64,000 bases of DNA from Halobaculum sp. MBLA0147 (GTDB lineage: Archaea > Halobacteriota > Halobacteria > Halobacteriales > Haloferacaceae), in contig NZ_JBGKAD010000003.1 of assembly GCF_041361345.1 (NCBI RefSeq), positions 186,001-250,000 on the forward strand, in the 5' to 3' direction. The notes beneath the pieces are model-generated. The model was not told where the DNA came from. It saw only the letters and a list, made by a program, of their open reading frames with translations, and searched no databases. Positions 4,857-19,037 of this stretch are shown here, piece after piece. Position 1 is the first letter of the stretch. Each line of letters starts with the position of its first letter. Made by a program: the position numbers and the translations under genes.

Positions 4857-7800
4857 TCACGCGTCGGCGTCGCGCTCGTCGCCGCCGTCACCGTTGAGGA
4901 GCGTGTCGAACACCTTGCGTTCCGCCTCGCGGAGGTGCCGGTTCAGCGTCGGCTGGGTGATGTCCATCGCGGCCGCCACCTCGCGGCCCTCGTGCTCGCG
5001 GGGCCACGCGAAGTAGCCCATCTCGTAGGCCGTCTCCAACGCCTCCGCCTGCCGCTCGGAGAGTCGGTCCGCGAGTCGTCTGGCGACCCCGTCCGCCGAC
5101 GCCGCACTCGCCTCGTGTTCCCGGCGAGCGAACAGCGAGAGCCCCGGCAACCGGTCGCCGAGTCGCTCGACGAACCGCCGCACGTCCGTCTCCGTCGGCA
5201 ACTCGACGACCAACTCCGTCCCGTCCGGGCGCGCCGTCCCACGGCGGAGTACGCCGCCGTACTCCGAGACCGTCGCACCGAACCACGTCGTCCCCTCGCG
5301 CTCCACCGTCACGCCGCCGTCCTCGCCCACCGTCACCGTCGTCTCGCCGGGGAAGACGCGGTCGGCGACCGCCGCGACGTCCGACTCGTCGTCCCCCGTG
5401 GCGGCGCTCGCTCCGGTGTCGGCTCCGCCACTCCCGGTCTCTCCCGAGGGGAGTGTGTACACGACCGTCAACGAACCGTCCTGTCGCCGGACGGTGCGCT
5501 CGTGTCTGACAGTTCGCCCAGTCTCGCGAGCCAGTCGTGCGAACGGCACCGTCGCGTCACCCCGAAACTCCAACTCGACGGTCTCGTCGGACTCCAGCGC
5601 TCGACGGCGCTCGACCGCGGTGATCGCGTAGCCGATGGAGGCACCGAGTTGATCGACGGCGTCACCCGCGGGGCCGTCGAAGGCGTCCGCCTCCGTCGCC
5701 TGGATCACCAACACGCCGTGTGTGATCCCCTCGTAGACGAGCGGGACCGCACAGACTGCCTCGATCCCCCGCCTGACGAGCGCGCGCCGCCACGGGGCAC
5801 CCCCGGCTGTGACGAACCCCGTCTCCGTCGTCGTCTCGCCGGTCCTCGAGGCGGCCGTCGCCGGGTGTGGGTCCGCGTCGCTCGCGTCCGCGAGACACTG
5901 CGCGACGGTCTCGTCGGCGACGCCGGCTGTCACCCGCGGTGAGAGTGTGCCGGTTCCCCCGCCACCCCTCGCGGAGGCGGTCCAGGCGGCCGCGAACGGC
6001 TCGATCTCGGCCAGCCGCTCGCAGACCGCCCGCTCGACGCCGACGCGGTCCGACTGCTCGGTGATCGCCGCCTCGACGCGCCGCGTCAGCTCCGCGACGC
6101 GCTCCAACTGTTCGGCCCGCTGTGTCTGGCGCTCCAACTCCGCCCGCTGGGAGGCCAGGCGCCGTTCGCCGGCGATGTGGTTCAACGCCGCCTCGAGTGT
6201 CGCCGCGACGAGGTTCGCGGTCTCGGCCGACGGCGCCCCCTCGTCGCCGACGACACACAACACCCCGTGACTCGCCAGCGGGACGAGCACGGCGGTCCGC
6301 CCCGTCGCGACGCCGGTGGTCGCGCCGTCGTCCCTCGTTTCCGTCTCGCTGCCCGTCTCCGTCTCGCTGCCCGTCTCCGTCTCGGTTCCCATTTCCGTCT
6401 CGTCCGACTCGGCGTCGGGGTCCTCGTCCCCGTCGCCACCGCCGTCCGTGACGGGGAACGACGCGCCGTCCGGGAGGCCGATCCGCGTCGTCTCCTCGTC
6501 GACGAAGGCGTGCCACGCCGGATCGCCGGGGCCGCAAGTGGGCAACTCGTCGGCGGGTGCGAGCGACCCCGCCGCGGCGGTCGGAGCGAGGTCCCCCGTC
6601 TCGTCGTCGAGGAGGTGGACCGCAGCGTCCAATCCGAACACGTCCGCGGTCGCCTCGACGGCCGTCCGACAGGCCGCCTCCGGCGTGGACGCGGTCGTCA
6701 ACTCGCCGGTCGCCTCCTGGAACGACTCCACCGTCTGGCGACGCTCCCGCTCGTCCGTCACGTCACGCGACAGCGAGACGATCCGCGTCACCTCGCAGGG
6801 GTCGTCGGCCGCGCGGATCGGGTACACGCGTCCCTCGATCCACCGGACACTCCCGTCGTCGCGCCGGACTCGGTACTCGTAGTCGTGGCTGTCCGGGCCG
6901 CGGCGGTCGGGGTCCGTCCAACAGTCGATCCAGTCCTGCAACAGGCCGAGGAACTCGTCGCGGTCCGCCGGGTGGAGTGTCTCCTCGAACGAGAAGCTGT
7001 CCTCGTACATCCGCTCCGGGCTCTGCCCCCAGATGTCCTCGTACGAGGGGCTGATGTAGTGGGTCTCGGAGAGGTCCGGTTCCGCGAGGTGGATCACCTC
7101 GTCGACGGCCTCGGCGATCTGCTGGAACTGTCGCTCCCGACGTTCCAACTCCGCCTCGCGGGCGCGTCGGTCGGTCACGTCTCGGAAGTTCGCCAGCGTC
7201 GCTGGCTCTCCCTCGTGAGTGATCGCCGAGACGGCGAGTTCGAACACGCGTCGGCCACCGTCGGGTGTCTCCACCTCCACGTCGTACCGCCGTGGTGGGT
7301 CGCCGTCGCCGATGCGCTCGCGGTAGCGCTCGCGCACCAGCGACTCGTACTCCGGGGCGAAGATCGACTCCAGCGGCTCCCCCACCAGCGACTCGGGGTC
7401 GTAGCCGGTCACGTCCGCGAACCGGTCGTTGACGAACACGAACTCTCGGTCTTGGACGACCGTCACCCCGTCGGTGCTCTGTTCGACCAGCGTCGAGTAC
7501 TTCTCGCGTTCCTCGCGGAGGCGGCGCTCGCGCCGCTCGCGTTCGGTCACGTCGCGACACACCGCCATCGCGAGCGTCTCCCCGTCGATCTCGACCGGCG
7601 TCACTCGTGCCGCGAGGGTCCGCCGCTCCCCGTCCGGGAGGTCGAGTCGCCACTCGACGCGCTCCTCCTCACCGGAAGTGACGACACGCTGGTACAACTC
7701 TACCGCTCGCTCGACGGTGTACCCCTCGTCGGTCGCGCTGACACCGTCGACGCCGGCCTCGAGGACCCACTCGCGGTCCCGTCCCACCAGTTCACACAAC

Positions 7801-8507
7801 GCCTGGTTGACGTCGACGATCTCCCCCGTCTCCGGGTCGTGGACCGCGACCACGTCCGTCATCTCGTCGAGGACGACCTCGTACCGGCGGTCGAGCGGGC
7901 GGTCGCCCGCTCCCGTCGCCGTCGTGGTGGTCCCGACCCCGTCGGCCACTCCGTCCTCGGTCTCGGTGTCACTCGGCGGCGTGTCGTCCCCCTCCGTGCG
8001 GCCGTCCCCATCCGTGCAGCCGTTCCCATCCGTCCAGCCGTTCCCCTCCGTGCAGCCGTTCCCCTCCGTGCGGCCGGCTCTCGCAGGCGAGCCGTCGTCG
8101 GTGGCGGCGAGTTCGAGTAGGCTGTCGAGTACCGTCTCGGGTGTCTCGGCGAGTGCGTCGCGTGGTAGCGTCGCCGTCGCGCCGGCTCGGAGCGACTCGA
8201 CGCCGGCGGTGGTCTCGTCGTCCGTCGCGACGACTACCGGCCCCGTCGCCTCCGAGAGTCGGTCGACGACCGCGGCGGGGTCGTCGGCGACGACGAGCAC
8301 CGCGGCTGCCTCGTCCGTCCCGTCGGCACCGTCCGACGCTCTCGCTCCGGACGTGTCGCCGTAGTCGGTCCCTCCGACGGCAGCCGCCTTCGACTCGACG
8401 GCGACGGAGCCCGGCGTGTCTCGGCGGTCGGCTACCTCTCGCAGGAGCGCCGCTACGTCGTCGGGGCCCACGACGAGGAGACGGCGTTCGGTCGACGAAC
8501 CGTTCAC
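4857..8507 (-). CDS. PAS/GAF sensor with Bat-type HTH_10 transcription regulator
   Basis: A 1216-aa cytoplasmic protein with no transmembrane segment. Residues 1-140 resemble a receiver-like fold without an obvious phospho-acceptor pattern. A Gly/Thr/Asp-rich repeat linker (about 143-205) follows. Then come three PAS domains (about 209-323, 335-448 and 459-585; for example VFVNDRFADVTGYDPESLVG), a GAF-like domain (about 595-770, interrupted by a TETETGSE repeat insert) and a second GAF-like domain (about 800-965). A Bat-associated region precedes the C-terminal HTH_10 (LSERQAEALETAYEMGYF, then AAAMDITQPTLNRHLREAE). No histidine-kinase core is present, so it should sense small molecules, redox state or light and bind DNA directly. 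Targets are unknown; the family includes the bacterio-opsin activator Bat. It starts at ATG 8507. Confidence 0.88.
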   Translation of the reverse strand: MNGSSTERRLLVVGPDDVAALLREVADRRDTPGSVAVESKAAAVGGTDYGDTSGARASDGADGTDEAAAVLVVADDPAAVVDRLSEATGPVVVATDDETTAGVESLRAGATATLPRDALAETPETVLDSLLELAATDDGSPARAGRTEGNGCTEGNGWTDGNGCTDGDGRTEGDDTPPSDTETEDGVADGVGTTTTATGAGDRPLDRRYEVVLDEMTDVVAVHDPETGEIVDVNQALCELVGRDREWVLEAGVDGVSATDEGYTVERAVELYQRVVTSGEEERVEWRLDLPDGERRTLAARVTPVEIDGETLAMAVCRDVTERERRERRLREEREKYSTLVEQSTDGVTVVQDREFVFVNDRFADVTGYDPESLVGEPLESIFAPEYESLVRERYRERIGDGDPPRRYDVEVETPDGGRRVFELAVSAITHEGEPATLANFRDVTDRRAREAELERRERQFQQIAEAVDEVIHLAEPDLSETHYISPSYEDIWGQSPERMYEDSFSFEETLHPADRDEFLGLLQDWIDCWTDPDRRGPDSHDYEYRVRRDDGSVRWIEGRVYPIRAADDPCEVTRIVSLSRDVTDERERRQTVESFQEATGELTTASTPEAACRTAVEATADVFGLDAAVHLLDDETGDLAPTAAAGSLAPADELPTCGPGDPAWHAFVDEETTRIGLPDGASFPVTDGGGDGDEDPDAESDETEMGTETETGSETETGSETETRDDGATTGVATGRTAVLVPLASHGVLCVVGDEGAPSAETANLVAATLEAALNHIAGERRLASQRAELERQTQRAEQLERVAELTRRVEAAITEQSDRVGVERAVCERLAEIEPFAAAWTASARGGGGTGTLSPRVTAGVADETVAQCLADASDADPHPATAASRTGETTTETGFVTAGGAPWRRALVRRGIEAVCAVPLVYEGITHGVLVIQATEADAFDGPAGDAVDQLGASIGYAITAVERRRALESDETVELEFRGDATVPFARLARETGRTVRHERTVRRQDGSLTVVYTLPSGETGSGGADTGASAATGDDESDVAAVADRVFPGETTVTVGEDGGVTVEREGTTWFGATVSEYGGVLRRGTARPDGTELVVELPTETDVRRFVERLGDRLPGLSLFARREHEASAASADGVARRLADRLSERQAEALETAYEMGYFAWPREHEGREVAAAMDITQPTLNRHLREAERKVFDTLLNGDGGDERDADA
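6337..6390. repeat. In-frame 18-bp repeats, three copies, inside the sensor gene
   Basis: Three 18-bp units (6337-6354, 6355-6372, 6373-6390), plus the start of a fourth, encode alternating Thr-Glu-Thr-Glu-Gly-Ser type residues in a GAF-domain insert. The 6-codon period preserves the frame, so copy-number change would only alter linker length. Confidence 0.7.
7993..8080. repeat. In-frame 18-bp repeats, four copies plus partial, inside the sensor gene
   Basis: Units at 7993-8010, 8011-8028, 8029-8046 and 8047-8064, with a partial fifth, encode Gly-Asn-Gly-Xxx-Thr-Glu/Asp repeats in the linker between the N-terminal domain and the first PAS domain. This is a coding minisatellite likely to vary between strains. 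Confidence 0.7.
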
Positions 8508-9965: not shown

Positions 9966-11627
9966 GTGATACGGCGCGTTCGACGGCAGTACACCTACCG
10001 GTTGGGAGCCGCACTCGCCGTGGCGGCGCTGGCGACGGTCCTGTTCGGCGCGGGGTTCGCGGCGTACGGGACCGGCGCCGGAGTCCCAGTCTCGGAGGTC
10101 GTGATCGCCGTCTGTTTCGTCGCCGTGCTCCACCTCGGCGTGCTCGGGGTGGTGCTCGGCGGCGACGTGGCGACGGAGTTGAGTCGGCTGACGGCCGCGG
10201 CGGAGGCGGTCGGCGACGGCGACTTGGACGTGGACCCACGGAGTCGGCGCAGCGACGAGATCGGCGAGTTGGGCGACGCACTCGCGGAGATGCGCGACTC
10301 GCTACGGACCGCCTTCGACGAGTCCGAGCGAGCCCGCGAGGAGGCGGAGGCGGCCCGCGCCGACGCCGAGGCGCAGACGGAGTCGTTGTTGGCGGCCGCC
10401 GAGGAGGTCGGGGCGGCGCTGGAGGCCGTGGCGGACGGCGACCTGACGCACGAACTCGACACGGACGCCGACGAGGCCGCCGTCGCGCGGATCGCGGACG
10501 CCTACGAGGCGATGGCGACGGACCTCTCGGCGACCGTCGACCGGATCAGGACGTTCGCGGCCGACGTGGAGGAGACGGCGACCGCGACGGCAGAGGACGC
10601 GGCGCAGGCGGCGCGGGACCACCGCGAGTTGGCCGCCGAGATCCGGGACGCGGCCGACGGCGTGACCGCCGCGGCGGACAGACTCGCGACGGTCGCGGAG
10701 GACGTGGGCGACGTGTCTGCGACGATCGAGGAGGTCGCCGCGACCAGCGACGAGGTGGCCGACCGAGCCGCCGCAGGCGGCGAGGTGGCGGCGACCGGCG
10801 CGGACCGTAGCGAGGCGGCCGTCGCGGCGATGGAGACGGTCGAGACGCGCGTGGAACGGCTCGACGAGTTGGTGGCGCAGTTGGACGAGCGGATGGCCGA
10901 CGTGGAGGAGACGACGGACCTCGTCGCGGACGTGGCCGAACAGACGGACGTGCTCGCGTTGAACGCGAACGTCGAGGCCGCACGTGTCGACGTGGAGGGT
11001 GACGGCTTCGGCGTCGTCGCCGAGGAGGTGCGGAGTCTCGCCGAGGAGAGTCAGACGGCCATCGCCGAGATCGAGGCGACGGTCGCCGAGACACGAGCGG
11101 ACGTGGACGAGGTGACCGACGAGACCGCCGCGACCCGCGAACGACTCGCCGAGAGCACCGAGTCCGTCTCGGAGGCCGTCGAGACGTTCCGGGAGCTGTC
11201 CGCGGTCGTCGCGGAGGTCGACGACGCCAGCGACGAGATCGCTCGGGCGACTGACGACGGGGCGGCCGCCGCGGAGTCGGTCGCGGCCGCCGTGAGCGAG
11301 GTACGCGAGCGGGTCGCCGAGGCGGCCGAGGCGGCCCAGTCGCTGGCGGCCCGCGCGGAGGCGACAGCCGAGACGATGGCCGAGTTGGAGACGCGTGCCG
11401 AGGACCTCGTCGACGACACCGTCGAACTCCGGACGATGCTCGACGACTTCGAGACACGGTCGAGTGGCGACGGGCGAGTGGCGCCGGACGCCGCCACGAC
11501 GGAGCCGACGACTGGGGCTTCGACGACTGGAAATTCGACGACTGGGGCTTCGACGACCGGGAGCTCGACGGCTGGGCGGCCGACGAGCGGCTCGGTCGGA
11601 TCGTCCGCGGGAGGTGACGACCGGTGA
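9966..11627 (+). CDS. Two-TM HAMP methyl-accepting transducer (Htr-type)
   Basis: A 553-aa membrane-bound signal transducer. Two TM helices (about 10-33 and 43-66) are separated by a very short extracellular loop, so there is no extracellular sensor domain. A HAMP domain follows (about 67-120), then a second HAMP-like segment (about 145-205). A long coiled coil carries the conserved CheA/CheW-contacting hairpin (EQTDVLALNANVEAARVDVE, then GFGVVAEEVRSLAEE). The C-terminal tail has a Thr/Ser/Gly repeat (TTGAST-like). Two TMs with a short loop is the architecture of HtrII-like transducers that take input from a membrane partner. The gene starts at GTG 9966 and its stop overlaps the opsin-like gene by 4 bases (GTGA), supporting a signalling complex. 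Confidence 0.9.
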   Translation: MIRRVRRQYTYRLGAALAVAALATVLFGAGFAAYGTGAGVPVSEVVIAVCFVAVLHLGVLGVVLGGDVATELSRLTAAAEAVGDGDLDVDPRSRRSDEIGELGDALAEMRDSLRTAFDESERAREEAEAARADAEAQTESLLAAAEEVGAALEAVADGDLTHELDTDADEAAVARIADAYEAMATDLSATVDRIRTFAADVEETATATAEDAAQAARDHRELAAEIRDAADGVTAAADRLATVAEDVGDVSATIEEVAATSDEVADRAAAGGEVAATGADRSEAAVAAMETVETRVERLDELVAQLDERMADVEETTDLVADVAEQTDVLALNANVEAARVDVEGDGFGVVAEEVRSLAEESQTAIAEIEATVAETRADVDEVTDETAATRERLAESTESVSEAVETFRELSAVVAEVDDASDEIARATDDGAAAAESVAAAVSEVRERVAEAAEAAQSLAARAEATAETMAELETRAEDLVDDTVELRTMLDDFETRSSGDGRVAPDAATTEPTTGASTTGNSTTGASTTGSSTAGRPTSGSVGSSAGGDDR

Positions 11628-12406
11628 CTACCACACTACTCCCGTTGCAGGTGGACCAGGCGACGGTGCTGCAGGCGGCCGCCGTCGGGTACGCCGTCGT
11701 CCTCCTGGCGCTGCTGGTCGGCGTCAGACGCGTCGACGCGAGCCTCCGGCGGTACTGCTACCCGCTCGTCCTGCTGGCGGCGCTGGCGACCGTCGACTCG
11801 CTGTGGCAGGCGACCGGTGGCGGGAGTGTGGTCGTGAACGGCAACGCCGTCCGGGTGAGTACGGCAGCGCTGGACGTGTACGCCTACGCCGTGTTGTACG
11901 GCGGGACGACGCTGTTGGCGGGTGCTTCGCGCCGGCTCGTCGCCGCGGTGACCGGCGTCGCGGTCACGATGCGGGTGGCGTTCTCGTTGGGCAACGCCGC
12001 GGCACCGGGCACGACGCTGGCGACGCTGGCGGCCGTCGGCATCCTCGGCGGCTACCCCGTCGTCGTCGCGCTGTACCTGCGCCCGGTGTGGCGCGCGGCC
12101 CAGCGCGTCCCGGCACGACAGCGACTGCTCCACTGGAAGGCGCGCAACCTCCAACTGTTCCTGTTCGGGATGCTGGTGGTGTACGCCTTCCTGCTGTTGT
12201 CCGGACTGATCCAGAACATCGTCGTCAGTCAGGTGCTCGTCCAGTACCCGAACCTGCTGTTCCGCGGCGGCGTCTCGCTGTTGATCGTCCACCGGCTGGC
12301 CGGGTTCGAGGGCCGCGAGTCCCTGCGGCTGGGTGGCGGCGCCGGCGACGCCGGGACGGACTCCAGCGAGTCGGCGAGTGCCGGCGGGGCGGCGGCGGGC
12401 GACTGA
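11624..12406 (+). CDS. Seven-helix opsin-like membrane protein lacking the retinal lysine
   Basis: 260 aa, GTG start at 11624 overlapping the transducer stop. Seven hydrophobic helices fit at about 15-34, 44-64, 79-100, 104-123, 130-152, 175-195 and 204-225, with an Arg-rich first inner loop, which predicts the N-out topology of microbial rhodopsins. Helix 3 keeps an Asp (D84) where the counterion Asp of sensory rhodopsins falls, and helix 6 begins RNLQLFLFG, like the RNL of sensory rhodopsin II helix F. The only lysine in the protein is K172 in the loop before helix 6; helix 7 (QYPNLLFRGGVSLLIVHRL) has none, so no normal Schiff base is possible. Homology to rhodopsins is inferred from topology, local patterns and the transducer-first gene order; an unrelated 7TM sensor is the alternative. 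Confidence 0.6.
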   Translation: MTTTLLPLQVDQATVLQAAAVGYAVVLLALLVGVRRVDASLRRYCYPLVLLAALATVDSLWQATGGGSVVVNGNAVRVSTAALDVYAYAVLYGGTTLLAGASRRLVAAVTGVAVTMRVAFSLGNAAAPGTTLATLAAVGILGGYPVVVALYLRPVWRAAQRVPARQRLLHWKARNLQLFLFGMLVVYAFLLLSGLIQNIVVSQVLVQYPNLLFRGGVSLLIVHRLAGFEGRESLRLGGGAGDAGTDSSESASAGGAAAGD

Positions 12407-12528: not shown

Positions 12529-14016
12529 ATGCGATTCGATCGACAGAGTGGCGTGTTCTGTCACGTCACCTCGTTGCCGGGGCGACACGGCATCGGCGAC
12601 CTCGGCGCGGGCGCGACCGCCTTCCTCGACTTTCTCGACGCGGCCGACCAGTCGCTGTGGCAGGTGTGTCCGCTCGGTCCGACGACGGCCGGGGCGTACC
12701 ACTCCCCGTACCAGACGCTCTCCGGATTCGCCGGGGACCCACTGCTCGTCGCGCTCGACCCACTCGGCGAGCGGGGCTACCTCGGGGACGACGAACTCGA
12801 ACCGCCGGCCGGCGTCGCCACCGACGAGACGCGCTACGACGCCGTGAGCGAGTTCAAACGCGACCGCCTGCGGACCGCCTTCGAGCGGTTCCGCGAGTCG
12901 CCAGCCGACGGCGACCGCGAGGCGTTCGACCGGTTCCGCGAGCGCGAAGCCGCGTGGCTCGACGACTACGCGCTGTTCGTCGCCTGCAAGCGCGCCTTCG
13001 ACGGCGCGCCGTGGACGGAGTGGCCCGAGCCGATCCGGGCACACGACGAGGAAGCCGTCGAGCGCCGTCGCGAGGAGTTCGCCGACGACGTGGCGTACCA
13101 CGCCTTCTGTCAGTGGCTGTTCGACCGGCAGTGGCGCCGCGTCGCGGACGCGGCCCACGAACGCGGGATCGAGATCGTCGGCGACCTCCCCATCTACGTC
13201 GCGTTCGACTCCGCAGACGTGTGGGCGTCGCCGGAGGCGTTCCAGATCGAGGACGGCGAGCCGACGGCCGTCGCGGGCGTCCCGCCGAACCCCGGCGACG
13301 ACGGCCAGCGTTGGGGGAACCCACTGTACGACTGGGACGAACTCGCGGCCCGCGACTACGACTGGTGGCTCGGCCGCCTCCGCCGGCTGTTCGAGTTAGT
13401 CGACGTGACCCGCATCGACCACTTCAAGGGGTTCGACGAGTACTGGGCGATCCCCGGCGACAGCGACGACCCGGCGGACGGGGAGTGGCGCGACGCCCCC
13501 GGCGTCGACTTCTTCGAGACGGTGGAGGCGGAGTTGGGCGAGTTGCCGTTCCTCGCGGAGGACCTGGGCTTCCTCGACGAGTCCGTCGTGGCGCTGCGGG
13601 ACCGGTTCGGGTTCCCGGGGATGCGCGTGCCGGTGTACGCCGACTGGTGTGCGGAGGGGGACCGCTACCAGCCGATGCACTACCCCGAGGACAGCGTCGG
13701 CTACACCTCGACCCACGACACGGACACGTTCGTCGGGTACTACGAGGACCTCCCGGCCGAGCAGCGGGACTGTCTCCACTACAACCTCGGGACGGACGGC
13801 GAGGAGATCCACTGGGACCTGATCGAGGCGGTCTGGAACTCGAACGCCGCGGTGGCGATCGCCCCACTACAGGATCTCCTCGGCCTCGGGAGCGAGGCGC
13901 GGTTCAACACCCCCGGCACCGTCGAGGGGAACTGGCAGTGGCGCGTCACAGAGGAGCAGTTGACCGACGGCGTGGCCGAACGGCTCGCGCGGATCACCGA
14001 CGCGACGCTGCGGTGA
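12529..14016 (+). CDS. malQ: 4-alpha-glucanotransferase (amylomaltase, GH77)
   Basis: Transfers alpha-1,4-glucan segments between maltodextrins, releasing glucose, in the cytoplasm. 495 aa from ATG 12529, the usual size for the family. Conserved blocks are all present: an N-terminal LPG.HGIGDLG loop, SPYQTLSGFAGDPLL, GDLPIYVAFDSADVW, the catalytic nucleophile Asp in RIDHFKGF (about residue 298), the acid/base Glu in LAEDLGF (about 342) and the third carboxylate in STHDTDTF (about 396). The stop is 6 bases from the stop of the convergent glucoamylase gene. With the GH15 and GH13 enzymes nearby it forms a glucan-turnover gene group. No signal peptide. Confidence 0.95.
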   Translation: MRFDRQSGVFCHVTSLPGRHGIGDLGAGATAFLDFLDAADQSLWQVCPLGPTTAGAYHSPYQTLSGFAGDPLLVALDPLGERGYLGDDELEPPAGVATDETRYDAVSEFKRDRLRTAFERFRESPADGDREAFDRFREREAAWLDDYALFVACKRAFDGAPWTEWPEPIRAHDEEAVERRREEFADDVAYHAFCQWLFDRQWRRVADAAHERGIEIVGDLPIYVAFDSADVWASPEAFQIEDGEPTAVAGVPPNPGDDGQRWGNPLYDWDELAARDYDWWLGRLRRLFELVDVTRIDHFKGFDEYWAIPGDSDDPADGEWRDAPGVDFFETVEAELGELPFLAEDLGFLDESVVALRDRFGFPGMRVPVYADWCAEGDRYQPMHYPEDSVGYTSTHDTDTFVGYYEDLPAEQRDCLHYNLGTDGEEIHWDLIEAVWNSNAAVAIAPLQDLLGLGSEARFNTPGTVEGNWQWRVTEEQLTDGVAERLARITDATLR

Positions 14017-14022
14017 CCGCGA

Positions 14023-17000
14023 TCAGACGGAGAACCGCCGCACGGTCGTCCCCGCCTCGTCGAGCGCCGTGTCGGCGGCGGCAGCGACGACGACGTCGTT
14101 CTCGCCGTAGCCGATCTCGACGGTCGCCTCGAACGCGCCGTCGGTCACCTCGACGTACGCGTCGTCTGCCGGCGTGGAGACGGCGACGGCAGCGCCGGTC
14201 GTCTTCCCGCTGACGACCACCTCGTTGCCGCGGAAGCTGGTGTCCACCTGCAGCGCCGGGCTCTCGTCGGGGGCGTGCAGTTCGCGGTCGACGTACCGCT
14301 CCTCGACCGCCGCGGGTGTCTCCGCCGGCCGTCCGGCGTCGATCCCGTGGGCGAGACGGACGTACTGGGCCATCGACCACGCCAGCGGCGTCGCCGAGCC
14401 GGTCCCCTCGCCGTACGCCCAGTCGTAGGCCGTCGACACCTCGCGGTCCCACACCTGCTCGGCGATCATCCGCCCGGAGTTGGCGAACTCCGCCATCGCC
14501 GAGAGCGCCCGCTCGGGTGCGACCAGTTCGTCCGTCGGCTCGTCGCGCCGGAGTTCGTACTCCGCCCGCTCGCCGGTGAGGATCGGCCAGAGGCGACCCT
14601 TCCCCGGCTGCTCGACGGACCACGGCGCACCCATGTCGCCCTGCTCGACCTCGCCGTAACCGTCGCCGTTGTAGCGGTAGAACGCCGCCCCCGCGGGCAG
14701 GTCGACGCGGATCTCGTCGTCCACCACGTCGAGGGAGGTCTCCAGTACGTCGTCGTCCCACGGCCGGATGCCGAGCCGCGCCAACTCCAGGAAGCCGGCG
14801 TCGATCACGTTCCGCTCGTCCAAGCGTGGCCCACCGTTCGCCAGCGTCCGGTGGTGACCCGCGTCCGGGTCGCCGTCGCGGGTCACCCGGAGGTAGTACG
14901 GCGTCTCCGTGTGACGGTCCGTCCCGGTGGTCGTCGCGGTCCACTCCTCGACGCGGTTGGCCCAGCTGTCCGCCACCGCGCGGTACACCAGCGCGTCCGA
15001 GTCGTGGCCGGTCGCGGCGGCCAACTCGCTTGCGGCGACGAGTCCGGCGATCTCCGCGGCGATGGTCGACGGGGAGTAGCCGGACTCCTCCTCCCAGCGT
15101 TCCTGGCCGCTCTCGGGGCCGTTCCGGACGACGTAACTCGCAGAGCGGCGGACGTGCTCGTAGTCGTAGGCCACGTCGTCGAACGTCAGCCCCCGCTCGT
15201 GGAGGTGGTACGCCATCACCGCCGGGTAGGCGATGTTGTCCATCTGCTCGCCACCCCAGCGGGTGATCCCGTTGAGGTACGTGTTCTGGGGGATGAACCC
15301 GCGCTCGTCCTGCTGGTAGTTGTAGACGTACGCCACCTGGTCGGCCGCGGTCTCGAGGTCGTCGACCAACTCGAAGGCCGTGAACACCTGGTAGAGGTCC
15401 CGCGACCAGACGAAGTTGTAGCCGTACCCCTTCTCCACGTCGGCGGTGACGGCGTCGCCCCAGGGGACGGACGGCGACGCGATGGAGGCGCCGACGAACG
15501 TCTTGTCTTCGACGGCACGCAGCGTCATCAGTGCCGAGCGGTACTGGTTCGCCAGCCGCTCCTCGTCGGCGACGGCGTCCGGGAGCGGCTTGTCCGCGAG
15601 GAACGACCGCCAGGTGTCGACGTAGCGCTCGCGGACGGCGTCGAACCCGTCGGCGAGTGCGCCCGCCGCCTCACCCAGCGACGCGGACACGTCCGCCTGG
15701 CGAGCGAACCCGAGTGCGAGCGTGTCTCGAACTGCGGTGCCGGTACCCATCCGCCCGACGAGCACGACCCGCTCGTCCGTGATCGAGTCGCGTGTCGTCG
15801 GCGTGACGCCGTCGGTGAAGAACTCGTCGAGCGCGCCGCCGGCACGCCCGACCGTCGCCCAGTCGAACCGGCCGGCGGTCGCCATCGTCGCGGCGACGGA
15901 GTAGCGGTCCCCGTCCTCGTCGACCAACAGCGGTTCGCCGGCCGCCATCCGCTCGTCGGCCGTGTCGGCCCGATCCGCGGGGTCGACCGGCTGGTCGGCC
16001 ACGTCGTCGGCCGTCTCGCCGGTGTACGCCTCCGCGTCGCGGGCGACCAAGTAGTGACTCCCCGGCTCCCCGAGGCGGAGACCCCGGTCCTCCGTCCCGG
16101 TGTTCGTGAGTGCCGTGTCCGCGACGGCGTACAGTTCGTAGGCGTGGTCGTCGCCGGACTCGAAGGTCACGTCGGCGAGGAGCGCGTCGTGGTCCGGGTC
16201 CGTGACGTACTCGACGCGCAGCGACCACTCGTGGCCCCGTCCGTCGCCGGTCTCCGCGATCTCGTGGGCGAACGCCAGGGCGTCGTCCGCGGTCGGTTCC
16301 ACACGTCGCTCGACCGTGTCGTCGGCCGCCGCCGACCCCTCGACGTGACTCCGCGCGGTGTAGGAGTCGTCCTCGCAGACGACCACGAAGTCCAGCGTCC
16401 GGAGGTTCATCAGGTCGACGCGCGGGAACCGCACCTCCGTCAGTGTACCCTCCGTGGCGGTGAACCACACCCGCGAGGGCGTCTCGGTGGTGTGGTCGGC
16501 GGCGGTGCCAACGGCGAACTTCTCGCCGGTCGTCCACTTCGGGCGTTCCGGCGGGCTGTCCGTCTCGCTCGCGCTCGACGGCAGGGCGTCGGCGGCCGAC
16601 AGCAGTGCCGTCGCCTGCAGGCGGTAGCCGTGCGAGAACCCCAGCGGCGTCGCCGAGTCGGCGCTCCCGTCGTCGAACACCTGCTCCGGGAGGTAGCCCG
16701 CGTCCGTCGGCAGCGGCCCCTCGTCCTCGATAGACTCGTAGAGATCGCTCGCCCAGGCGAACAGCGTCGCCGCGTCCGCACTCGCCCGCTCGTGTGGCCC
16801 GCGGTCGCGGTCTGGCGGAGTGGACGTCCCGGTCGACTCGTCGCTCGTCGCCCCCTCCGTCTCGGTCGTCTCACTCGCGTCGGTCGGCTCCGCCGCGTCT
16901 GCCGACGCGTCCGACGAGTCCGCGGTGGCCTCCGCCCGCCCGCCGTCGGGCGCCGCCGCGGCGTCGAGGTGGCCCTCGAAGGCGACGGCGCCGTCTGCGA

Positions 17001-18846
17001 TCTCCTCCAGCAGCGTACCGAGTTTCGCCGCGGCGACGGCCCCCATCGCGGTCGTCAGCGACCACACCTTCTCGGCGTGTTGGCCGCCGGTGCGCCAGCG
17101 GTCCCCCTCGTAGCGGATCAACCCGGCGACCGGGTCGTCGTCCGGGTCGCGGTACAGTCCCGACAGCGTCGTCTCCGTGTGAGCCACGACGCGGGGGAGC
17201 AGGCGGTCGGGGAGCGAGATCTCGTCGACCTCCTCCGCGACGACCAACGCGTCCGCCAACGCGAGTGTCGCGCCGTCGAGACGGTCGTCGAGGCCGTCGT
17301 CCGTCCGCCGGACGGCGTAGGCACACTGCTCGGGGAGCCACAACTGGTGGAGGCTACCGGCGACGAGTTCCGCCCCGTCGCGGGCGATTCCGGCGGTCAC
17401 CTCGTCGACGGGGGCGTCCGCGACCGCCGCGAACGCCTCCAGGAACGTCGCCGCCGTGTGGGTGAACTGGCCGGCGGCGTCCTCCCAGATGTTCTGACAC
17501 GCGACCGGGAGTCCGGCCGCCCCGAGGTCGTCGTCCAGCGCCCGCACCCCGTCGGCGACCGTGCGCTGGATCCGGTCGCGGTCCTCGCGCGACAACTCGT
17601 CGCCGCGGGCGTCCAACAACGTCGCGAGGAACCGCACGACGGTCGCCGTCTGGTCCGCCTGGTACTCCGTCGAGTCGGCCTGCCCCTCGACCCGGCCGTT
17701 CGCCCACCCGGGGGCCAACGAGCCGTCGGCGGCCCACACGCGGTGGGGCCACGTCCCGTCTGGACGCTGTGTCTCACAGTAGAAGCGCGCACTCCGGACC
17801 AACTCCTCGGTCACGTCCAGTCCGAGCGTCCGCTGGGAGCCGAGCAGGAGCTGCGAGATGCGCGCGTCGTCGCGGAACCAGGTGTAGCCGTAGCCGCCGG
17901 AGTTGGTGAAGAACGGGTCGAACTCCGGGCCGGCGATCCGTGCGCCGGACGGCGACTCCAGTAAGTCGAGCACGCGGAGGTCGTTGCGGACGGTCCGCTC
18001 GCGGACCACGTCGTCGGGCACGTCCACCTCCGTGCGCTCGCCCGCGACCGTCCGCAAGGCACGAGCCGAGTCGAACTCCGTCACGCAGTTCGCCAGGTCA
18101 CCCAGCGCGTCCGCGCGGTCCACGTCCGTGTGGTCGGACAACTGCGTCACCAGCGAGGTACGTCGGCCGCGGCCGGCTTCCTCCAGCGGTGCGGTGACGA
18201 CCACGTCGCCGGAGAGGTGGGTGTCCTCGTACCGGTTCAGCGCCGACTCCGAGGGGAACTCGACCGGGTCGTCGTCGAGAATCTCGTAGAACCGTTCGGG
18301 CACCTGTCCGCGCACGTCGTCGAGCCCGGTGGAGGCGGCGACGTAGTCGTGTTCGTCGCGGTGGAACACCTCCAGCACGCGACTGTCCTCGGGGCCGGCG
18401 TCCTCGTGGATCAGCCGGCCGAGGCGACTCTCGCGGCCCTCCGGCGCGAGCGTGAGGAACGCGATCAGACTCGCCTCCGGCGGCACGGCGCCGCGGAGTT
18501 CGACGTGGGTGACGTGGGCGCGTCCGAGGGTGATGTCGTACTGGTGGACGGTGAAGCGGCCGGCGTCGTACTCCGTCTCCACGAGGGTGGTCTCGCGGTA
18601 GTAGTGTTGCCGGACGATGTCGAGGTCGTCGAACCAGTAGGTGTGGTCGGCCGTCTCGATTCCGAAGCGAGACCGGTCGAGACCGGAGAGCCCAGACAGC
18701 GCGTACGAGTAGTCGCGGAGACGACCGCGGGGGTCGACGTGGACGAGTCGATCCCCACGGCCAGAGAAGGCGCCCGTGGACGTGTCGGCGGCGCCGCCGT
18801 CCGACGGATCGCGTTTGAACTCGTTGAGTGCGGTGCGGAGTCGCAT
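14023..18846 (-). CDS. Double-domain glucoamylase (two GH15 modules)
   Basis: A 1607-aa cytoplasmic protein (no signal peptide) starting at ATG 18846 as MRLRTALNEF. Residues about 1-690 and 730-790 form a first GH15 glucoamylase-like module (GGYGYTWFRDDARISQLLL, WPHRVWAADGS, GGQHAEKVWSLTTA, YLPEQVFDDGSADSATPLGFSH), interrupted by a Ser/Thr/Glu-rich linker near 665-735. A second module has its own beta-sandwich N-domain (about 815-1090, KWTTGEKFAVGTA) and catalytic (alpha/alpha) domain (YGYNFVWSRDLYQVFTAF, GGEQMDNIAYPAV, GQERWEEESGYSPST with the acid Glu, GKGRLWPILTGERAEYE). An Ig-like C-terminal domain covers about 1515-1607. It should release glucose from non-reducing ends of glucans. Whether both modules are active cannot be judged by eye. 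Confidence 0.88.
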   Translation of the reverse strand: MRLRTALNEFKRDPSDGGAADTSTGAFSGRGDRLVHVDPRGRLRDYSYALSGLSGLDRSRFGIETADHTYWFDDLDIVRQHYYRETTLVETEYDAGRFTVHQYDITLGRAHVTHVELRGAVPPEASLIAFLTLAPEGRESRLGRLIHEDAGPEDSRVLEVFHRDEHDYVAASTGLDDVRGQVPERFYEILDDDPVEFPSESALNRYEDTHLSGDVVVTAPLEEAGRGRRTSLVTQLSDHTDVDRADALGDLANCVTEFDSARALRTVAGERTEVDVPDDVVRERTVRNDLRVLDLLESPSGARIAGPEFDPFFTNSGGYGYTWFRDDARISQLLLGSQRTLGLDVTEELVRSARFYCETQRPDGTWPHRVWAADGSLAPGWANGRVEGQADSTEYQADQTATVVRFLATLLDARGDELSREDRDRIQRTVADGVRALDDDLGAAGLPVACQNIWEDAAGQFTHTAATFLEAFAAVADAPVDEVTAGIARDGAELVAGSLHQLWLPEQCAYAVRRTDDGLDDRLDGATLALADALVVAEEVDEISLPDRLLPRVVAHTETTLSGLYRDPDDDPVAGLIRYEGDRWRTGGQHAEKVWSLTTAMGAVAAAKLGTLLEEIADGAVAFEGHLDAAAAPDGGRAEATADSSDASADAAEPTDASETTETEGATSDESTGTSTPPDRDRGPHERASADAATLFAWASDLYESIEDEGPLPTDAGYLPEQVFDDGSADSATPLGFSHGYRLQATALLSAADALPSSASETDSPPERPKWTTGEKFAVGTAADHTTETPSRVWFTATEGTLTEVRFPRVDLMNLRTLDFVVVCEDDSYTARSHVEGSAAADDTVERRVEPTADDALAFAHEIAETGDGRGHEWSLRVEYVTDPDHDALLADVTFESGDDHAYELYAVADTALTNTGTEDRGLRLGEPGSHYLVARDAEAYTGETADDVADQPVDPADRADTADERMAAGEPLLVDEDGDRYSVAATMATAGRFDWATVGRAGGALDEFFTDGVTPTTRDSITDERVVLVGRMGTGTAVRDTLALGFARQADVSASLGEAAGALADGFDAVRERYVDTWRSFLADKPLPDAVADEERLANQYRSALMTLRAVEDKTFVGASIASPSVPWGDAVTADVEKGYGYNFVWSRDLYQVFTAFELVDDLETAADQVAYVYNYQQDERGFIPQNTYLNGITRWGGEQMDNIAYPAVMAYHLHERGLTFDDVAYDYEHVRRSASYVVRNGPESGQERWEEESGYSPSTIAAEIAGLVAASELAAATGHDSDALVYRAVADSWANRVEEWTATTTGTDRHTETPYYLRVTRDGDPDAGHHRTLANGGPRLDERNVIDAGFLELARLGIRPWDDDVLETSLDVVDDEIRVDLPAGAAFYRYNGDGYGEVEQGDMGAPWSVEQPGKGRLWPILTGERAEYELRRDEPTDELVAPERALSAMAEFANSGRMIAEQVWDREVSTAYDWAYGEGTGSATPLAWSMAQYVRLAHGIDAGRPAETPAAVEERYVDRELHAPDESPALQVDTSFRGNEVVVSGKTTGAAVAVSTPADDAYVEVTDGAFEATVEIGYGENDVVVAAAADTALDEAGTTVRRFSV

Positions 18847-19037
18847 GGGGGTCCGTCGGACCCCCGGGTACAAAACCTCTCGTGGTGGCTCGTGCTCGTA
18901 CCCGATTACGTTCGGGTGTTGTCTCGCGGAGTCACGCGGCCGATTCCGGTGGACGCGCGGATCGTTCGCGGCCGCTCCGTGGCGCGAGCGACGCACGACC
19001 GTGGACGACTCTTCAGGTCCGAGCCGGTAGCAGAGTC

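Follow-up and report, generated by a model that had tools for sequence, protein, structure and literature searches.

In the complex formed by sensory rhodopsin II (SRII) and its transducer HtrII, Tyr199 of the Natronomonas receptor (NpSRII) hydrogen-bonds Asn74 of HtrII. The haloarchaeal opsin-related proteins (ORPs) are a class described by Becker et al. in 2016, who proposed for them a role in taxis toward stimuli other than light (PMC4915679). Group A of these proteins has arginine in place of the retinal-binding lysine, is adjoined by a HAMP/MCP transducer in 15 of 16 cases and carries a signature in which W76 is changed to Asp, Y174 to Leu and W178 to Ala while Y199 is conserved (PMC4915679). 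Type 1 opsins that lack the lysine are also found outside the haloarchaea. The bacterial Rh-noK proteins and the freshwater FArhodopsins differ from ORPs in being relatives of proteorhodopsin and xanthorhodopsin, the former standing in tandem with a proton pump and the latter having no transducer genes (PMC10308929). The fungal opsin-related proteins result from separate losses and branch apart from the haloarchaeal ORPs (PMC4915679). A search of the open literature found no later functional study of ORPs and no report of an ORP effect on taxis.

We analysed a stretch of 64,000 nucleotides from Halobaculum sp. MBLA0147 (contig NZ_JBGKAD010000003.1, positions 186,001 to 250,000), hereafter the window, in which a preliminary description had noted a transducer gene overlapping that of a seven-helix (7TM) protein. 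We consider it probable that the two form an SRII-HtrII-type two-part chemotaxis receptor whose 7TM subunit, a group A ORP, works without retinal. The idea of a retinal-less opsin with a transducer is not new and is the same as that of Becker et al. (PMC4915679); judged by its sequence, the pair described here adds a new and divergent member to group A. Its features, all on the plus strand, are as follows.

9966..11627, plus strand: HtrII-like transducer, 553 aa, GTG start, with two TMs, HAMP and an MCP signalling domain
10002..10160, plus strand: TM1 (about residues 13-34), a very short loop and TM2 (about 44-65), placed by alignment with NpHtrII
10131-10133, plus strand: H56, aligned with N74 of NpHtrII, to which Tyr199 of SRII bonds
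11624..11627, plus strand: GTGA, shared by the transducer stop and the 7TM start
11624..12406, plus strand: 7TM opsin-related protein, probably of group A, 260 aa (profile, AlphaFold2, Foldseek and tree)
11828..11851, plus strand: residues 69-76, predicted beta hairpin in the BC loop, as is typical of type 1 rhodopsins (DSSP on the model)
11870..11875, plus strand: L83-D84, L83 at the counterion site and D84 at BR W86 / NpSRII W76 (alignments)
12125..12148, plus strand: motif LLHWKARN, residues 168-175, cytoplasmic start of helix F, holding K172 (alignment)
12164..12187, plus strand: F181, L184 and A188, helix F positions at which the retinal pocket is lost (residue tables)
12245..12247, plus strand: Y208, equivalent of NpSRII Y199, Tyr in 85 of 85 ORPs
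12263..12265, plus strand: R214, in place of the Schiff-base lysine (BR K216 / NpSRII K205; alignments)

Both reading frames lie where the preliminary description had placed them, with GTGA at 11624-11627 common to the two. The 7TM start is either 11624 or the alternative GTG at 11651, because the homologues start at V10 of the 7TM protein. With the later start, if real, the two genes would no longer overlap; the overlap of 4 nt obtained with 11624 matches those in relatives. An MCP-like gene lies directly upstream on the same strand in 72 of the 85 ORP genes surveyed, and in 62 of these 72 pairs, all of them other than the window's, the overlap was scored automatically as exactly 4 or 8 nt, the window's own 4-nt overlap being scored from the later model start. 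The ORPs without a directly upstream transducer are mostly of the Leu type, besides one at a contig end and a few others. From 33 MCP-domain matches over a genome of 4.3 Mb, we estimate chance adjacency at less than about 1% per gene; the adjacency of ORP and transducer is far beyond chance. The same gene pair, whose presence in other haloarchaea the preliminary description had wished to see examined, is conserved across many haloarchaeal genera.

Taken alone, the 7TM protein matched 0 Pfam families at E up to 10, the PF01036 (Bac_rhodopsin) profile included, and gave nothing meaningful in NCBIfam or in a single-sequence PDB search, where a match to a nanobody (E 0.8) is attributable to chance. 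A single-sequence search found relatives in 8 of 60 genomes, and a search with an alignment found them in many more; 17 named loci from GTDB genomes include Haloarcula amylolytica, Halomicrobium, Halosimplex, Halorientalis, Halobacterium, Halorussus, Halobaculum and Natrarchaeobius. A family profile built from 18 ORPs, all without the retinal lysine and none of them a canonical opsin, has NpSRII as its first match (E 4.8e-21), and all its other significant matches are microbial rhodopsins or rhodopsin fusions. The profile search suggested in the preliminary description thus gave nothing with the single sequence and found NpSRII with the family. The AlphaFold2 model (pLDDT 85.6) has the seven helices previously counted in the 260-aa protein together with the BC-loop beta hairpin, and Foldseek places SRII and SRII/HtrII structures first among its PDB matches (E about 2e-7, TM-score 0.75 by query and 0.88 by target), so that the predicted fold of the subunit is that of a rhodopsin, as anticipated. 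In addition, the intermediate ORPs L007 and L008 match both the window protein and PF01036 above the cut-off. From family profile, predicted fold and intermediates together, homology to type 1 opsins therefore follows. Membership in an unrelated 7TM family, which would have contradicted the preliminary description, is unlikely, as no such family was matched in the Pfam, NCBIfam or family-profile searches.

The transducer was recognised directly by Pfam (HAMP, E 2.5e-10; MCPsignal, E 2.6e-29), and its two predicted TMs with almost no extracellular loop between them agree with the earlier account. Residues 3-135, the TM-HAMP part, match NpHtrII (2f95_B) with an E value of 3.7e-24 and the QT-x-LALNA-x-VEAAR tip is intact, so that TM1-TM2-HAMP homologous to NpHtrII is combined with an MCP signalling tip. 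Both subunits are homologous to their counterparts SRII and HtrII. As in SRII systems, the cognate two-TM HAMP transducer is encoded upstream of the receptor. A solved chain of the PDB, 9wxr_A ('Rhodopsin,Chemotaxis protein'), seemingly a fusion of opsin and transducer, was matched by the ORP profile as well as by the transducer.

Several residues of the 7TM protein had been singled out beforehand. The Arg-rich first inner loop, the RNL at the start of helix 6 (R174-N175-L176) and the single lysine, K172, outside helix 7 were all recovered; K172 belongs to a motif that is invariant as LLHWK.RN in 18 aligned ORPs and whose core, K.RN, recurs in nearly every group A ORP. Helix G, which holds the retinal-binding lysine of SRII, has none here: R214 occupies the site, which among 85 ORPs is Arg in 64 and Lys in 0, in keeping with the loss of the helix-7 retinal lysine that had been suspected. 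The claim that D84 stands at the counterion position did not hold, since three alignments place D84 at BR W86 / NpSRII W76 and the counterion site proper (BR D85 / NpSRII D75) is L83; the assignment was therefore off by one residue. In helix F, BR W182, Y185 and W189 are replaced by F181, L184 and A188, respectively, and the W189 site is aromatic in 0 of the 85 ORPs. On the side facing the transducer, Tyr at the NpSRII Y199 site, universal among these 85 ORPs, occurs in 8 of the 46 opsins of the comparison set. Its partner site, N74, which we located via the G83F variant in the alignment of NpHtrII with the transducer, carries Asn in 46 and His in the remaining 25 of the 71 ORP-linked transducers readable there.

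Compared with NpSRII/HtrII, the window pair is thus alike in fold (predicted here), operon order, two-TM HAMP transducer and the Tyr199-Asn74 contact positions, and differs in having no Schiff-base Lys, no Asp at 75, no aromatic pocket, a shorter TM1-TM2 loop than NpHtrII and His for Asn74. As read from the alignments, Schiff-base lysine and pocket aromatics have been lost and the receptor-transducer contact residues retained. This supports the proposal of the preliminary description that the architecture of a photoreceptor complex was kept while covalent retinal binding was lost.

The genome encodes eight canonical opsins (L169-L176), pumps and several sensory rhodopsins, of which five have their own adjacent Htr, and two Blh/Brp-like, retinal-forming enzymes. 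As retinal is made and canonical opsins are present, absence of cellular retinal does not account for the missing lysine. For the same reason, the pair could in principle be a photoreceptor whose 7TM subunit binds retinal or another polyene non-covalently. We regard this as very unlikely: with retinal available, such binding would have to take place in a pocket whose aromatics are replaced (W86 by D84, besides the three of helix F), two ORPs expressed heterologously and given excess retinal developed no band at 480-580 nm (PMC4915679), and the species that have ORPs and no canonical opsin also lack crtY and brp (PMC4915679). The genome also contains CheW-domain genes, and its about 32 MCPs and eight canonical opsins make up a rich photosensory set.

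In a tree all ORPs fall on one side of the branch that leads to 27 canonical opsins (support 100/99), and the window protein lies inside an Arg-ORP clade of 30 rows (100/100), its highest identity within the tree set being about 42%. Membership in the ORP clade was judged from relatives, among them the H. amylolytica ORP, which stood in for the sequences of Becker et al., and together with the change of Lys to Arg (R214), the adjacent HAMP/MCP transducer and the signature residues L184 (Y174 to Leu), A188 (W178 to Ala), D84 (W76 to Asp) and Y208 (Y199) it points to group A. Measured against the pair of H. amylolytica (L159), a species in the ORP tree of Becker et al., the window 7TM protein is 36% and the transducer 48% identical. 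Its nearest neighbour is the second ORP of its own genome (L087, G000:C5:49062-49805, minus strand, transducer upstream; support 100/98). The window ORP is divergent among group A ORPs and sister to a lineage with Ser or Tyr at the Arg site. The transducer tree reproduces this sister pair, along with two ORP-linked clades that correspond to those of the ORP tree and stand apart from the SR-linked Htrs, and the distance matrices of ORPs and transducers correlate at 0.85, compared with at most 0.24 in 2000 permutations. Since shared species history contributes to this correlation, what it shows is co-inheritance of the two partners rather than contact between them.

The co-inheritance and the separate transducer clade bear on another possibility: acting as a blind regulator, the 7TM subunit might occupy a transducer or mix with retinal-binding sensory rhodopsins and so tune phototaxis, with no stimulus of its own to sense. 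The five canonical SR-Htr pairs of this genome would provide it with partners, and a regulatory role has been speculated for the bacterial lysine-less Rh-noK (PMC10308929). Yet the ORP has a dedicated transducer with which it is co-inherited, and some relatives (G018) have ORPs and no PF01036 match, which renders such a regulator improbable.

As to the residue that replaces the lysine, we find a rule that links it to helix C. All 76 distinct Arg-bearing ORPs have Asp or Glu at position 85 or 86: 33 lack an acid at 85 and 23 lack one at 86, and none lacks both. ORPs with a neutral residue at the lysine site have no acid at 85/86, and one His lineage has an acid. Fisher p values for Arg against acid, to be taken as guides only since related sequences are not independent, are 8e-8 for all sequences, 0.007 below 75% identity and 0.03 below 60% identity. 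On a tree built without these alignment columns there are three changes of Arg, and the acid changes along with it in nearly every pairing (mean 2.8 of 3); three events are too few for significance. The covariation of 214 with 83/84 is weak, ranking 13th and 18th of 217. In the sister lineage of the window ORP the Arg site is occupied by Ser (L087, L219) or Tyr (L163/L238), with no acid at 85/86. Becker et al. (PMC4915679) use none of the terms 'salt bridge', 'ion pair' or 'counterion' in their main text, and we found no counterpart of the Arg-acid rule in that paper; we regard it as a possible addition. The distribution of residues suggests that Arg and acid may constitute a built-in ion pair that takes the place of protonated Schiff base and counterion.

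Two further groups of ORPs deserve mention. Those with His at the lysine site (L242, L247, L251, L136, L148, L185) have Asp at 85 only in some cases. A subgroup of Arg-ORPs (L075, L080, L095, L120-L131 and similar) has the motif YGKLRNL, D/E at 85 and Tyr at 86; it groups with Leu-type ORPs and not with group A, fits neither Becker group neatly, and its transducers are larger, with open frames of about 760-890 aa.

That the Arg-ORPs obey this rule is difficult to reconcile with the pair being a decayed sensory rhodopsin, now functionless. Lysine and pocket have indeed been lost, and some ORP matches of other genomes (e.g., G174 and G143) contain a stop codon, but the long ORF is intact, some positions are invariant throughout the family, the pair is kept across many genera and eight of nine ORP genes tested are transcribed (PMC4915679); decay is therefore extremely unlikely. 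The same residues lend some weight to a different reading, that the pair responds to a physical state such as membrane potential, pH, lipid packing or temperature and not to a ligand. Given the Arg-acid rule, a buried Arg with a carboxylate would be a plausible pH or voltage sensor, and the transducer offers hardly any extracellular loop to which a ligand could bind; set against this, an extracellularly accessible pocket was predicted in three ORP models (PMC4915679). A physical stimulus is thus conceivable, though on balance we doubt it.

The surroundings of the pair were examined for recurrent genes. In the window it is flanked by the following genes.

4857-8507, minus strand: large PAS-GAF-BAT-HTH_10 regulator of the bacterio-opsin activator type, near the pair
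12529-14016, plus strand: GH77 4-alpha-glucanotransferase, just downstream
14023-18996, minus strand: glucodextranase-N/GH15 protein of 1657 aa, beyond the GH77 gene

Taxis toward maltodextrins, which the GH77 and GH15 genes might suggest, was rejected as these neighbours do not recur. Clustering of the flanking ORFs gave no recurrent neighbour besides the transducer; as it brought out only clade-wise synteny and antisense artefacts, the neighbours give no hint of the stimulus.

Returning to the two-part chemotaxis receptor without retinal, we propose that the 7TM protein and the transducer would form a 2:2 complex in which helix F and TM2 shift in response to some stimulus that is not light, and that HAMP would relay this movement to the CheA/CheW-binding tip, changing swimming. 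In the most speculative part of the scheme, an Arg214-Asp84 ion pair would replace the pair of protonated Schiff base and counterion as a conformational latch, and a small molecule or a proton would be the switch that opens it. It is possible, and we offer it tentatively, that group A ORPs have placed an Arg-carboxylate, chromophore-free latch on SRII's helix F/TM2 switch, turning a light receptor into a chemical (or pH/voltage) receptor by keeping the latch and swapping the trigger, and that the latch was later uncharged in a sister lineage, two members of which, with uncharged residues at this place, are in the window's genus.

Retinal-less opsins with transducers of their own would be a strong microbial case of a photoreceptor put to use for a different stimulus, a parallel to which is offered by opsins among the GPCRs. 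The window pair provides a testable handle on such re-use in Arg214-Asp84 and Tyr208-His56, and the two ORP pairs of this one genome, the ion pair being predicted in one and absent from the other, may serve as a natural comparison.
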